From Candidatus Sumerlaeota bacterium (GTDB taxonomy: Bacteria; CG03; SLGR01), in assembly GCA_007136585.1 (NCBI GenBank), contig SLGR01000062.1, positions 1 to 12,472 on the forward strand: 12,472 nt of DNA. Reading direction: 5' to 3'. Position 1 is the first letter of the stretch. The number at the start of each line of letters is the position of its first letter. A program made the position numbers and the translations under genes. Below, piece by piece: positions 3,226 to 11,030 of this stretch. The notes under the pieces are model-generated. The model had not been told where the DNA came from and made no database searches. It saw only the letters and a list, made by a program, of their open reading frames with translations.

Positions 3226-4827
3226 ATGCCCCCCGGTATAATAGAGAGCGATCTCCTTATTATAGGCACGGGGGCCGCCGGCCTGGCTCTGGCGCTTTAC
3301 CTGGAAGACGACCTGAAAGTAACCCTTATAAGTAAATCTCAGCCAAGCGATACCTCAAGCTTCAGGGCTCAGGGAGGGATAGCCTGTGTTACCGCTGCCA
3401 ATGATACGTTTGAAAAACATATATCCGATACGCTGAACGCCGGAGACGGTCTCTGCGACAGGGATATCGTGGAGTCCGTGGTGAGGTCCGCCCCCGCCGC
3501 GATTGAGAACCTTAAAAAATGGGGGGTGCGTTTTTCCGGCGGTAATTCCGAACCGGAACTCGGGCGCGAGGGGGGGCATTCCCGCAGGAGGATACTTCAC
3601 AGGGACGATAAGACCGGCGAGGAACTTGAGATGCGCCTGCTTGAGCGGGTGGAGGCGAAAAGGAAGATCTACCGTAATCATACCGCCGTAAACCTTATAA
3701 CTGACAGGAACGGGTGCGGCGGGGCATACGTCCTTGATAACAGCACACTGAAGGTAAAAACCTTTACCGCGCGGGCGGTTATACTTGCCACAGGCGGGTG
3801 CGGGAAGGCCTACCTTTATACTTCAAACCCTGATATAGCCACAGGTGACGGGCAGGCTCTGGCATACAGGGCCGGGGCGACCGTGGCGAATATGGAATTC
3901 ATACAGTTTCATCCCACCTGCCTTTACTCCCCGGTGGAACACTCGTTTCTTATTACCGAGGCAATGAGGGGCGAGGGAGCGGTCCTGGTGGATACATCCG
4001 GACGGAGTTTTATGAAGGATTACGATCCCCGCGGAGATCTTGCCCCGAGGGATATAGTCGCCCGGGCCATAGACAGCCAGATGAAAAAAGAGGGGGTAAA
4101 ACACCTCTACCTTGACATACATACCCGGAGGAGCCCCGGGTTCATAAAAAAGAGGTTCCCGGCCATATACGCTAAGCTTGCTGAGCTGGGCATAGATATC
4201 ACAAGAGAAAATATTCCCGTGGTGCCGGCGGCCCATTACTGCTGCGGGGGTATCCATACCGATGCCTGGGGGTTTACGGATATTCCGGGTCTTCTTGCCG
4301 TGGGGGAGGCGGCCCATACCGGACTTCACGGGGCGAACCGGTTGGCATCAAACTCCCTTCTCGAGGCCCTGGTCTTTGCTTCCCGCGCCGCGGAGAAAAT
4401 CCCTTCAGCTATCTCAGGGAGAAAATTTATTAAGCCGGATAGGTGGGAATATACAGGGAGCAGGCTTCCGGAAGAGAAGGTTTTTATTGAACATAACTGG
4501 GAGTCTGTAAGACGAATAATGTGGAATTACGTGGGTGTGGTTAGGAACGATTACAGGCTGAAGGAAGCGGAGAAAAGATTGAAAATAATTGAAAAGGATG
4601 TTAATTTTCACTACTGGCGCTATCTGATAACCCCCGGGCTGATAGAGACAAGAAACCTTGTTGAGACTGCAAAGATCATTGTTAGAAGCGCCGCGTTCAG
4701 AAAGGAGAGCCGCGGGCTTCATTTTAACCTTAACCACCCCGGAAAAAAAGAAAGGTTCAGGAGAAACACTTATATTTCCAGGGGAGAAAATCCGACAGGG
4801 CGTCATCCCGGCGCCTCCGGCACCTGA
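3226..4827 (+). CDS. nadB: L-aspartate oxidase
   Basis: NadB is a cytoplasmic FAD enzyme that oxidises L-aspartate to iminoaspartate, the substrate of NadA. The 533-residue length is typical (E. coli about 540). Visible features: the FAD dinucleotide box IGTGAAGL (13-20), SSFRAQGG (44-51), ILHRDDKTGEEL (123-134), ATGGCGKAYLYTSN (188-201), QFHPTCLY (227-234) with His229, ITEAMRGEGA (243-252), DLAPRDIVARA (271-281) with Arg275, AAHYCCGGI (335-343) with His337, and GANRLASNSLLEAL (369-382) with Arg372. The C-terminal helical domain ends in the family motif ESRGLHFNL (494-502). The start is one base after the nadA stop; the upstream Shine-Dalgarno is weak, so coupling is likely. The succinate dehydrogenase/fumarate reductase flavoproteins are relatives, but the length and neighbour nadA settle the call. 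The usual third gene, nadC, does not follow. Confidence 0.97.
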   Translation: MPPGIIESDLLIIGTGAAGLALALYLEDDLKVTLISKSQPSDTSSFRAQGGIACVTAANDTFEKHISDTLNAGDGLCDRDIVESVVRSAPAAIENLKKWGVRFSGGNSEPELGREGGHSRRRILHRDDKTGEELEMRLLERVEAKRKIYRNHTAVNLITDRNGCGGAYVLDNSTLKVKTFTARAVILATGGCGKAYLYTSNPDIATGDGQALAYRAGATVANMEFIQFHPTCLYSPVEHSFLITEAMRGEGAVLVDTSGRSFMKDYDPRGDLAPRDIVARAIDSQMKKEGVKHLYLDIHTRRSPGFIKKRFPAIYAKLAELGIDITRENIPVVPAAHYCCGGIHTDAWGFTDIPGLLAVGEAAHTGLHGANRLASNSLLEALVFASRAAEKIPSAISGRKFIKPDRWEYTGSRLPEEKVFIEHNWESVRRIMWNYVGVVRNDYRLKEAEKRLKIIEKDVNFHYWRYLITPGLIETRNLVETAKIIVRSAAFRKESRGLHFNLNHPGKKERFRRNTYISRGENPTGRHPGASGT

Positions 4828-4924
4828 GAGCGCACAAGGTAAATAAAAGAATTATGGAGACAAAAAAGTGCGAATAAGCGTAAAAATTTTCGTCCCTGCA
4901 CCGCCTGGAACTTTAAATGTATTT
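4828..4924 (+). other. Gene-free spacer after nadB, with a possible decayed repeat end
   Basis: No coding region, clear terminator or convincing promoter is seen here, and base composition drops to AT-rich. The last part (about 4890-4924) contains CACCGCCTG followed shortly by the unit boundary at 4925. This resembles the right end of the next repeat copy (CAGCGCCTG, then the boundary at 5106), so it may be the worn right end of an earlier unit. The match is short and the spacing differs, so this is only a suggestion. Confidence 0.3.
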
Positions 4925-5105
4925 GAGGGTATTTTCAGGTGAAACGTTTATGAGTAGAAACTCACAAAAAGAAATGAAAATGCTTCTTCAGCCTCTGCCG
5001 GCATCTGTTTTCTCATTCTCGCAACCTGCGGTTGCTCCGAGGGGTTCTTCCCTGCCCTCAGAACAAACCCGAAAACAGATACCGTCAGCGCCTGAGGGTG
5101 TGCCA
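4925..5105 (+). repeat. Structured tandem repeat, copy A (181 bp)
   Basis: The unit opens with a 23-bp boundary (4925-4947, starting GAGGGTATTTTCAGG) that is repeated without change at 5106-5128. ACTCACAAAAAG, ATGAAAAT and CTCATTCTCGC also recur exactly 181 bp later. It can fold into two adjacent stems. Stem I pairs 4927-4937 with 4975-4985 around a small TGAGT/ACTCA hairpin. Stem II pairs 4986-5012 with 5071-5097, with 23 of 27 positions paired (one wobble), including 10 unbroken pairs at its inner end. The loop of stem II contains a perfect GCAACC/GGTTGC hairpin (5021-5035). This is an ERIC- or MITE-like palindromic element or a structured RNA; I do not recognise the family. Short open frames inside it are not credible genes. 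Confidence 0.8.
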
Positions 5106-5268
5106 GAGGGTATTTTCAGGTGAAACGTCCATGATTATATACTCACAAAAAGGCATGAAAATATCCTGGCAGCCGCTGCCTACATCCGTTTACTCATTCT
5201 CGCTTCGCTCCGAGGTCGACCCTGTCGAAATCCGTAAACATATGTCGGCAGCGTCTGTGGATGTATGC
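5106..5268 (+). repeat. Structured tandem repeat, copy B (163 bp)
   Basis: This is the second, diverged copy. Its left 100 bp align with copy A without gaps at a fixed offset of 181 bp and its right end at an offset of 163 bp, so one net 18-bp difference lies in the loop of the long stem. Stem I pairs 5108-5118 with 5156-5166. Stem II pairs 5169-5193 with 5234-5258, with 21 of 25 positions paired (one wobble). The loop holds TCGAC/GTCGA (5216-5220/5224-5228). Several differences from copy A occur on both sides of a pair, so the pairing is kept. The right end leads into the uvrA start. Function is unknown. Confidence 0.78.
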
Positions 5269-5290
5269 GTAGGTATTTTGAGATGAAAAA
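5269..5290 (+). repeat. Third, degenerate repeat boundary carrying the uvrA start codon
   Basis: GGTATTTT at 5272-5279 followed by GAGATGAAA matches the GGTATTTT CAGGTGAAA of the two earlier boundaries. The GTG of the repeat corresponds to the ATG at 5283 that opens uvrA. TATTTT (5274-5279) can pair with AAAATA (5290-5295), which would place the start codon in the loop of a weak A-T hairpin. AGG (5271-5273) is the best Shine-Dalgarno candidate, 9 nt before the ATG. It appears that the end of the repeat array supplies the translation start region of uvrA. Confidence 0.55.
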
Positions 5291-8147: not shown

Positions 8148-8150
8148 GTG

Positions 8151-11030
8151 ATGAATAAATTTTTGCTGGCAATGGTATTATCGGCGTCGCTCATGTCGGC
8201 TGTTTACGGGGTGCCGGCCCCGGAGGACAGCTCCGGGGAGCTTTTCAGTTTTGCCTACAGTCTTTACAGGGACGGAAACTACCGGATGGCCGAAGACAGG
8301 TTCCGCGCCTACACTGAGCAGTTCCCCCGCGGTCCGCGTATAGCTAAAGCGAGGTTTTTTCTGGGTAAGACCCTTATGCGGACCGCCTCGTACAGCAGGG
8401 CTTTTGATGAGTTTCAGAAGATTGCCGCGGAGTATCCGGGAACCCCTGAAGCCCTTGAGGCCGCCCTGCTTATGGCCGATGCCAGGTTCTACGGTTCCAG
8501 GTACCGTGAAGCCGCGGTCCTCTACAGGGATTTCCTGGAGCGGTACCCGGACTCTGACCTGGCCCCGGATACCCTGTATTACCTGGCCGAGAGCCTTTAC
8601 GGCGGTGGAGATTACAGCGAGGCCGCGGGTAAGTTCGGGGAGTTTTTGGAGAGATACCCCGAGAGCCAGTACGTCCCCTACGCTAAGCTCTCTGCTGCTC
8701 TAAGCCATTACAATCTCCAGGAATACGAGCGGGCCTCCGGGCTGCTGGATGATATTGTTTCTCTGGAAGATACACCTCAAGAGGTGCTTCACGAGGCGCT
8801 TTATTACGGCGGACAGGTCAATATAGACGCCGGGCGTTTCTCCCGCGCTAGGGAATTTCTTTCCAGACTGATTGAGAAAGCCCCTTCAGAGCTTTATTAT
8901 CCGGCACGGCTTCTCTTTGCCGGGAGTTTTCTGGAAGAAGGAGATTATGACCGGGCCCGGGAACTTTACTCCGGGATAGCCGGGGATGAGGATGCTCCCG
9001 GGAGCGTAAGGAAGGACGCTTTTTTTCAGGTGGGTGAGGCCCATTACTCTGAAGGAAATTACGCCCTTGCTCTCAGAAGCTGGGAAGAACTTATTGAGAA
9101 ATTTCCCGGAACCTCACGGGCTGAAGACGGGTTTTTTTCATCGGGGTGGAGCCTGCTCAAGCTGGAGGAACACCTGCGCGCAGCCAGGAAGTTCAGCGCC
9201 TTCATCCAGGAATACCCGCACTCTGACCGCGCCCCCTCGGCTCAGTTCCTGGTGGCGCATTCCTATTATCACCTGGAAGAATACACCCGGGCGGCATCCG
9301 AGTACGAAAGGGTCATAAGTTTCTACCCCCGAAGCCGTTACGCCCCGCGGGCCGCGTACTGGAGGGGTGTCTCGTATTTCAGGATGGGGGAGTTCGAAAG
9401 GAGCCTGGAGCTGCTGGACGAGTTTATCGCGGAATACCCGGACCACTTTCTTGTAAAGAGGGCCCTCTACCATAAGGCCCGGGCTCTTTTTGAGCAGGAC
9501 AACTTCGCAGCATCAAGACGCAATTTCAGGGAACTGGTAAGAGAGTTTCCCGGCACTGTGGAGCATGACCAGGCCCGGCTGGGAATAGCCGATACTTTTT
9601 TTGAGGAAGGGGATTACGGGTCGGCCCTGGAATCATACAGGGAGGTCTACCAAAAGGCCGGGGATGACCGGGTGAGGCGCCGTTCAAGGCTGGGAGAGGG
9701 TAACGCCCTGCTCAGAAAAAGGAGGTACGCGGAGGCGGTAGAGGCCTATCTCTCCGTTGAGGAGACCCCGGCTGTCAAGTTTCAGGTAGGGTACGCTTAC
9801 TACCGCGGCGCGGACCATGAGAACGCCCGCGACACGATGAGAGAGCTGCAGGAGAAGTATCCGGATTCCGAGTTCAGCGTAAGAGCTCTTTACTACGAGG
9901 CATGGAGTGATTTCAGGCTTGGGGATTTTGAATCCTCCCGCAGGAACTTCACAAGATTTTATGAGGAGAATCCCCGCCACGAGCAGGCTCCTGACGCTCT
10001 TCTCAGGGTAGGGGATACATATTATAACCAGGGCTCCTATGATGAGGCTATTGAAGTCTACAGGGAGGTAATATACGAGTATCCCGATACGGCAAGCGCT
10101 ATGTTTGCCCTGTATAATATAGGATGGACCTACCAGACTTCCGGAGACCGGGACCAGGCCCTGGAGACCTATGAGGAGTTTCTTGAAAGGTACCCGGATG
10201 CGGAGCTTGCCGATGAGGTTTATTACAGGCTGGGCGGGTTTTACTACCGTGCCGGTGAGTACGCCGAGGCGGCCGGGTACTACCGCGAACTCTATAATAC
10301 AAGCCGCGACCCCTCAACCCGCGCAGACGCGCTTTACTGGTCCGCCTGGAGTTTATTCCGCGCCGGAGACGGGGACGGGGCCCTTGAGGGGTTCCGGAGC
10401 CTTATAGAAGATTACCCTGATTTTGAACTTGCCGATGAGGTATACTACCGGATGGGGATGATATATACGGATATGCGAAGGCTGGACGAGGCGGTGGAGT
10501 ATTTCGGCAGGGTTTCCCGGGATTTCCCGGATTCCTCATTTGCCCCGGATGCCCTGTACAGAATGAGCCAGGCCCTGAAAGAAACGGACCGGGAGGAACG
10601 GGCCAGGGATATAGAAGAACAGATCAAGGAGAGGCACCCCAGGTCCGAGGCCGCGGCAAGGGTCCTTCTTGACCGGGGTATAACACTCCAGCGGGAAGGT
10701 GAGTATGAGGAGGCCCTTGATATCTTTGAACGAGTCGCTTCGGTCTCCACATCCAGACCTGCGGCTGAGGCGATAAAGCGTACGGGTGATATTTACTTTG
10801 CCGGAAATAATTATTCACGGGCCGCGGAAGAATACCTTAAAGCGGTCCTGAACTACGGAAGTTTTACCGATATAGCCGCCGAGGCCCGGTATATGGCCGG
10901 AAGGAGTAAACACCTTGAAGGGGATATTGAGACCGCCCTGGTAAATTACCGGAGAGTGGTGGAGGATTTTCCCGGAACAGGATGGGAGGATAAAGCCCGC
11001 GCCATGATAGAGGAAATTGAGGAGCAATGA
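8151..11030 (+). CDS. Exported protein of about 25 TPR repeats
   Basis: The protein has 959 residues. A signal peptide is evident: MNK, then a hydrophobic run FLLAMVLSASLMSAVYG, then VPAPED. There is no lipobox and no Cys at all in the protein, which suits a soluble periplasmic protein. From about residue 29 to the end it is made of helical pairs of 34-38 residues. I count about 25, each with small residues and Tyr/Phe at TPR positions and most closing with (F/Y)P(D/G/E)(S/T), as in FLERYPDSDLAPDTLYYLAE. These BamD/YbgF-like repeats usually act as protein-binding scaffolds in envelope assembly or Tol/TonB systems; the partner here is unknown. ATG 8151 is preferred, with GGAG at 8138-8141; GTG at 8148 would add one residue. 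It lies directly after uvrA, and its stop overlaps the next gene's start (ATGA), so it is probably co-translated with the beta-barrel protein. No enzyme motif is seen. Confidence 0.9.
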   Translation: MNKFLLAMVLSASLMSAVYGVPAPEDSSGELFSFAYSLYRDGNYRMAEDRFRAYTEQFPRGPRIAKARFFLGKTLMRTASYSRAFDEFQKIAAEYPGTPEALEAALLMADARFYGSRYREAAVLYRDFLERYPDSDLAPDTLYYLAESLYGGGDYSEAAGKFGEFLERYPESQYVPYAKLSAALSHYNLQEYERASGLLDDIVSLEDTPQEVLHEALYYGGQVNIDAGRFSRAREFLSRLIEKAPSELYYPARLLFAGSFLEEGDYDRARELYSGIAGDEDAPGSVRKDAFFQVGEAHYSEGNYALALRSWEELIEKFPGTSRAEDGFFSSGWSLLKLEEHLRAARKFSAFIQEYPHSDRAPSAQFLVAHSYYHLEEYTRAASEYERVISFYPRSRYAPRAAYWRGVSYFRMGEFERSLELLDEFIAEYPDHFLVKRALYHKARALFEQDNFAASRRNFRELVREFPGTVEHDQARLGIADTFFEEGDYGSALESYREVYQKAGDDRVRRRSRLGEGNALLRKRRYAEAVEAYLSVEETPAVKFQVGYAYYRGADHENARDTMRELQEKYPDSEFSVRALYYEAWSDFRLGDFESSRRNFTRFYEENPRHEQAPDALLRVGDTYYNQGSYDEAIEVYREVIYEYPDTASAMFALYNIGWTYQTSGDRDQALETYEEFLERYPDAELADEVYYRLGGFYYRAGEYAEAAGYYRELYNTSRDPSTRADALYWSAWSLFRAGDGDGALEGFRSLIEDYPDFELADEVYYRMGMIYTDMRRLDEAVEYFGRVSRDFPDSSFAPDALYRMSQALKETDREERARDIEEQIKERHPRSEAAARVLLDRGITLQREGEYEEALDIFERVASVSTSRPAAEAIKRTGDIYFAGNNYSRAAEEYLKAVLNYGSFTDIAAEARYMAGRSKHLEGDIETALVNYRRVVEDFPGTGWEDKARAMIEEIEEQ

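Follow-up and report, generated by a model that had tools for sequence, protein, structure and literature searches.

Probable mobile palindromes with operon-adapted ends at stop/start junctions of a Candidatus Sumerlaeota genome

Among repeats that tolerate translation, the nearest precedent for the sequence described here is provided by the Rickettsia palindromic elements (RPEs), palindromes of ~150 nt with an open frame compatible with coding, which are present in many copies in unrelated genes and are described as inserted inside genes to form in-frame fusions (PMC10969869). We studied a repeat between nadB and uvrA in genome G000 of a Candidatus Sumerlaeota bacterium, on a 12,472-nt stretch of DNA (hereafter the window). 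As compared by description, it resembles the RPEs in being a palindrome whose open frame is maintained from copy to copy, but differs from them in lying between stop and start codons, and its peptide is not conserved in frame. The region probably represents two copies in tandem, and the remnant of a third, of a non-autonomous mobile palindromic element with operon-adapted ends and a bridging frame at stop/start junctions.

A dispersed repeat at stop/start junctions

The order in the window is nadB, a truncated copy (~4896-4938), copy A, copy B and uvrA, with unit limits fixed by RTGA at 4939, 5120 and 5283. A repeat search of the window shows that copies A and B are direct repeats at 181-nt spacing, with identities of 88% (first 57 nt) and 85% (4989-5022). 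The features are as follows:

3226-4827, plus strand: nadB, the upstream gene, ending 111 nt before copy A
4896-4938, plus strand: third, older copy, truncated, 3′ end only (CTGCACCGCCTGGAACTTTAAATGTATTTGAGGGTATTTTCAG), matching the 3′ end of other copies
4939-4953, plus strand: copy A leader GTGAAACGTTTATGA, with the RTGA junction and a 4-codon frame (V K R L stop), read from the sequence
4950-5123, plus strand: copy A bridging ORF, 57 aa, MSRNSQKEMKMLLQPLPASVFSFSQPAVAPRGSSLPSEQTRKQIPSAPEGVPEGIFR; its stop TGA overlaps the GTG of the copy B leader
4988-5095, plus strand: copy A palindromic body (inverted repeat; covariation over 25 copies; covariance-model match at 4994-5091)
4988-5012 and 5071-5095, plus strand: copy A outer stem, enclosing hairpin 1 and the hairpin 2 region
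5018-5041, plus strand: copy A hairpin 1, with a 3-nt bulge TCC
about 5043-5069, plus strand: copy A hairpin 2 region
5120-5134, plus strand: copy B leader GTGAAACGTCCATGA, read from the sequence
5131-5286, plus strand: copy B bridging ORF, 51 aa; its stop TGA (5284-5286) overlaps the uvrA start
5170-5257, plus strand: copy B palindromic body including the outer stem (cross-phylum covariance-model match at 5175-5254, E 3e-15, copy B being a member of the training set)
5193-5198, plus strand: copy B CTCATT (core alignment)
5199-5214, plus strand: copy B hairpin 1 (core alignment)
5216-5228, plus strand: copy B hairpin 2, TCGACCCTGTCGA (core alignment)
5228-5234, plus strand: copy B AAATCCG (core alignment)
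5283-5286, plus strand: RTGA junction, the uvrA ATG overlapping the stop TGA of the copy B ORF, the same in nearly all copies

The leader, which is conserved in the alignment of family copies, ends in copy A with a TGA overlapping the ATG of the bridging ORF. At its 3′ end nadB (4780-4827) encodes a C-terminus about 14 residues longer than in the related genomes G002 and G006, as though remodelling of the junction had removed the original stop. Directly after uvrA, with no gap, lies a gene for a 960-aa protein of tetratricopeptide-like repeats (8148-11030) with internal DNA repeats.

BLAST yielded 33 matches to the region in G000 (best paralogue E = 1.8e-64) and the covariance model 32, so that we are dealing with a dispersed family of about 30 copies, and not with a local duplication; 30 of the ~33 matches were parsed, and all these counts derive from searches of a 1.88-Mb draft in 257 contigs, 88% complete and with many contig ends. 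Side-by-side comparison of the copies gives a unit of ~180 nt, composed of RTGAAA, CGTCC-ATGAGTATATACTCACAAAAAG-ATGAAAATA, the 5′ arm of the outer stem, CTCATT, hairpin 1, a single G, hairpin 2, AANCCG, the 3′ arm of the outer stem, GGGTATTTTCAG and RTGA. Its conserved core runs from CTCATT through hairpin 1 with the TCC bulge, G and hairpin 2 to AANCCG, and is closed by the long covarying outer stem. There are also leaderless copies, which start with ATGAAAAT, and one diverged copy with the same architecture was found in the relative G007, which belongs to the same taxonomic order. Two loci on contigs C246 and C238 (L028/L064 and L020/L081) have ~40 nt upstream of the element in common (ACTCCCGGGCGTACTCTTCTCCCATTTCTTT), which may reflect an extended 5′ end or else an artefact of assembly. 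On contig C155 (L010, ~1430-1490), two TGTTTCACGTGAAACA palindromes directly precede two element copies and rsmG, and the second shares bases with the element leader GTGAAACATC; we take these palindromes to match the ParB-binding parS sequence.

In nearly all parsed copies without a tandem follower, the last three bases of the element (ATG, GTG or TTG) serve as start codon for a long downstream ORF in the same direction, which is only begun in three copies ending at a contig edge. The exceptions are C44b, in which trpA starts some 30-45 nt further, C227, and C196, in which the start lies 6 nt further. The element is always in sense orientation to the downstream gene, and the upstream gene is co-directional wherever it is visible, its stop codon coinciding with the 5′ RTGA of the unit, or lying no more than about 20 nt from it, in about ten copies. 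Since the 5′ end begins with RTGA, the upstream stop can overlap the start of the element, and since the 3′ end is TATTTTCAG-RTGA, the final bases of the element provide the start of the downstream gene. The genes downstream were identified from their sequences and are unrelated to one another; they comprise uvrA, aroK, aroA, trpA, trpG, pdxA, tsaD, purQ, nnrE, mltG, rnr, rsmG and others.

Conserved fold and bridging reading frame

The long stem and the inner hairpin covary across 25 copies. In the 34-pair structure, 12 pairs have changes on both sides in the 25-copy alignment, and two-sided changes with pairing kept occupy 51 cells versus 21.1 +/- 4.0 in shuffles, although the copies are related and these counts do not represent independent events. 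The covariation score is 0.165, compared with 0.024-0.065 for slid partners, and slid versions of the structure yield 0-8 pairs with two-sided changes; RNAalifold alone predicts 21 pairs, 7 of them covarying, which make up the outer stem and hairpin 1. In copy A, the long stem is a 25-nt inverted repeat with 84% complementarity.

The original prediction, made on copies A and B only, had taken two two-sided changes in the long stem to suggest selection on pairing, and both are present in the bases: T5011-A5072 in A is A5192-T5235 in B, and G5001-C5082 in A is A5182-T5245 in B. Covariation was retained in the larger alignment, and its excess over the shuffles, together with the BLAST matches in the genome, disposes of the fallback reading of a local duplication of unselected sequence. 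The additional “stem I” of that prediction fared less well: its bases are as described (T4930-G4982 in A, T5111-A5163 in B) and do pair, but they join the 3′ end of one unit (TATTTTCA) to the beginning of the next (TGAAAAT), and by eye no covariation was seen at these unit ends.

The covarying three-way junction, its conserved core and the direct RTGA repeats at both ends could also be read as a structured RNA in the 5′ UTR of the downstream gene, whether a regulator, a ribozyme or a self-excising intron-like element, precise excision of which would restore the gene overlap. We consider this very improbable: Rfam yielded no match at the gathering score in the window and, with the limit relaxed to E = 5, nothing relevant for five named loci, the downstream genes share no common pathway, and excision of RNA would give no reason for an open frame.

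Such a frame is present in most copies, extending for ~50-60 codons from an internal ATG to a TGA overlapping the downstream start (RTGA). It is stop-free in 25 of 30 copies, and over these 30 copies there are 7 stops in the bridging frame versus 79 and 43 in the other two frames. Because this contrast partly reflects common ancestry, we simulated neutral evolution from an open consensus along the FastTree tree of the copies (1000 runs, gamma or site-specific rates). The frame is open beyond the neutral expectation: the 23 full copies contain 1 stop against 23.4 +/- 9.2 expected, and 22 of them are open against 8.3 expected, with none of the 1000 simulations as extreme; counting was by aligned codons, so that C44b and C244 were scored as open despite their frame-breaking indels. 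In the other 21 of the 23 full copies indels preserve the frame, and random reassignment of substitutions gives 20.8 +/- 4.2 stops where 2 are observed. Among unique substitutions placed in the consensus context, depletion of stops was not significant (6 versus 7.4 expected), and several of these substitutions sit in codons with further changes, yielding no real stop; the openness result therefore rests on real codons and on the tree-based null.

The last test would be in keeping with an ordinary REP- or MITE-like intergenic palindrome, with a functionless open frame that goes back to a single ancestral unit, as would the cores from Nitrospirota, Patescibacteria and Gemmatimonadota described below, which in the cases inspected are intergenic, variously oriented and uncoupled. 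This explanation appears unlikely, as stops are strongly under-represented given the divergence of the copies, indels in the full copies keep the frame, copies with reshuffled middles are still open in new frames, and a neutral intergenic repeat would not be expected exactly at start codons. The reshuffled cases are the G007 copy and the second C11 copy, in which the core is read in another frame, still open to the next start.

The encoded peptide itself shows little sign of constraint. Substitutions are distributed nearly evenly over codon positions (233/208/263), so the amino acid sequence is apparently little constrained; no match for the bridging peptide was found in Pfam or NCBIfam, and a peptide-profile search of the phylum yielded two weak matches outside G000 (in G013 and G015). 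Conservation of an MSxxSQK...GIFR peptide within G000 might point to a family of real small-protein genes of ~55 aa, duplicating with their own start and stop. We find this most improbable in view of the database searches and the flat codon-position pattern, the different frames used for the core in G007 and C11B, the palindromic fold, which accounts for the sequence, and the copies in other phyla, which are without such an ORF in the cases read. The sequence comparisons rather suggest that in the bridging frame it is openness that matters, and not the amino acids. Selection acting on a few source copies, and not on each insertion, could also keep the frames open.

Empty sites and a core shared across phyla

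Insertion can be followed at the level of orthologous junctions. We compared the downstream genes of seven occupied junctions, and uvrA, in the relatives G001-G007, and found eight gene pairs, each adjacent in five or more of these genomes, with no element in any of the junctions read: tyrA-aroA, aroC-aroK, acpS-nnrE, trpB-trpA, the rarA-like gene and mthfs, pdxA and tsaD each with its upstream neighbour, and nadB-uvrA. For every pair, at least one relative has a 4-nt gene overlap (tyrA-aroA in G001, G002 and G005; aroC-aroK in G003; acpS-nnrE in G002, G004 and G006; trpB-trpA in G001 and G002; the rarA-like gene and mthfs in two relatives, the pdxA pair in one and the tsaD pair in three). In six relatives nadB and uvrA are neighbours with no element between them, and in two of these, G002 and G006 (loci L371 and L373), they overlap by 4 nt. 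The remaining relatives have short gaps at these junctions and, in a few cases, other insertions. These empty sites indicate that the element arrived in the G000 lineage, at tight or overlapping junctions; together with the further copies in the genome, they bear out the earlier suggestion of a palindromic mobile element. That interpretation, sound as to pairing and mobility, had missed the ORF, the abutment on the uvrA start, the stop/start insertion and the cross-phylum core.

RTGA is present at both ends of the element and once in many empty sites. In about a third of single copies the two ends do not agree in its first base, and it may represent either a target-site duplication or a part of the element itself. 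Placement at RTGA may reflect a preference of the insertion enzyme, or survival of such insertions only. Unrelated spacers have been inserted at some of the same junctions in G003 and G005 (L231, L238, L244 and L369), such as ~300 nt between acpS and nnrE and a repeated CCGAGTAAA between trpB and trpA.

The core extends well beyond this lineage. The pattern CTCATTCTCGC-N(0-14)-GCTCCGAGG was found in at least 107 stretches from named genomes, and the matches listed are mostly from Nitrospirota, with others from Patescibacteria (Magasanikbacteria, Giovannonibacteria, Terrybacteria and others), Gemmatimonadota, Latescibacterota and Nitrospinota; a few single matches, for example in Holophagales and Planctomycetota, look like chance occurrences. 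Core flanks belonging to a single copy pair with a mean of -26.0 kcal/mol, versus -14.6 for swapped flanks, even though the stems differ in sequence. A covariance model built on 21 cores, the invariant letters of which were partly fixed by the search pattern, detects 99, 71, 45, 44 and 22 copies in five genomes, the maximum being in Nitrospirota, and in the phylum of G000 it matches G000 and G007 only. Viral contigs did not match the core, and the open-access full-text literature searched yielded no description of the core sequence as a repeat, the hits coming from unrelated fields, and none of repeats with translational coupling.

In the other phyla the core is intergenic and variously oriented, and the coupled ends are absent in the cases read, which makes the coupled form a local specialization of a wider class; the end pieces that would make the core safe inside operons are present in G000 and one relative. 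In two Nitrospirota loci (L113 and L158), apparently orthologous cores are told apart by an additional palindrome (CCCCCCTCAATCCCCCC...GGGGGG), inserted into the hairpin 2 loop; the core thus seems to act as a landing site for other repeats.

Judging from the arrangement of stops and starts, the bridging frame probably preserves translational coupling rather than breaking the operon. Ribosomes finishing the upstream gene would re-initiate at RTGA and translate first the short leader and then the bridging ORF, and those leaving this ORF would re-initiate on the downstream gene, which would also receive a purine-rich GGAGGG-like stretch from the element. Coupling would thereby be kept, and an untranslated spacer RNA, a possible cause of polarity, would be avoided. 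The fold, as RNA or as single-stranded DNA, may be recognized by a putative mobilizing machinery. We tentatively propose, as a possibility somewhat short of an even chance, an undescribed cross-phylum class of mobile palindromes with a three-way-junction core, one lineage of which would have acquired adapter ends targeting RTGA overlaps and a coupling-preserving bridging frame, and would have colonized operons of essential genes at little cost.

Overlapping genes in compact bacterial operons should be poor insertion sites, because coupling is broken. The family described here occupies such junctions, with the frame open across trpBA, tyrA-aroA, aroC-aroK, nadB-uvrA and others, and may offer a natural series for gauging the strength of in vivo selection on coupling, as well as a candidate neutral linker for operon design in laboratory strains. 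The core, which reaches 99 copies in a genome and occurs in several poorly known phyla, constitutes an abundant repeat class without an Rfam match.

Relation to known repeat systems

In being palindromic, intergenic and present in tens to about 100 copies per genome, the element resembles REP/REPIN sequences, which are associated with RAYT transposases (Y1, TnpA-REP), and G000 has one Y1 gene; it differs in consisting of a three-way-junction unit of ~90-180 nt, as opposed to a short single hairpin. The sole Y1 gene of G000 (L209, contig C230) codes for a 313-aa protein with a C-terminal DnaA-C-like helix-turn-helix, and similar proteins are encoded at L210 and L212. We considered Y1/RAYT as a mobilizer, searched the phylum and 12 carrier genomes, and found no support for it: PF01797 (Y1) had no match in the draft carrier genomes G066, G068 and G069, the genomes without detected Y1 being two with 44 and 22 copies and one with 7, and no core was found next to a Y1 gene in the Y1 loci examined, among them the single one in G000. 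Two hallmarks of REP/RAYT systems, Y1 in every carrier genome and a repeat flanking the transposase gene, are thus lacking here.

With miniature inverted-repeat transposable elements (MITEs) the element shares its short, dispersed and repeated nature, self-complementary ends (TGAAAATA ... TATTTTCA) and the lack of a transposase gene of its own. It differs from them in that no autonomous partner or parent transposase was seen in the loci read, and in the bridging ORF, which would couple the flanking genes. The element fits the MITE category in the broad sense, with insertion shown, as a further likeness, by empty sites at eight syntenic pairs; RTGA would be its target-site duplication if it is not part of the element.
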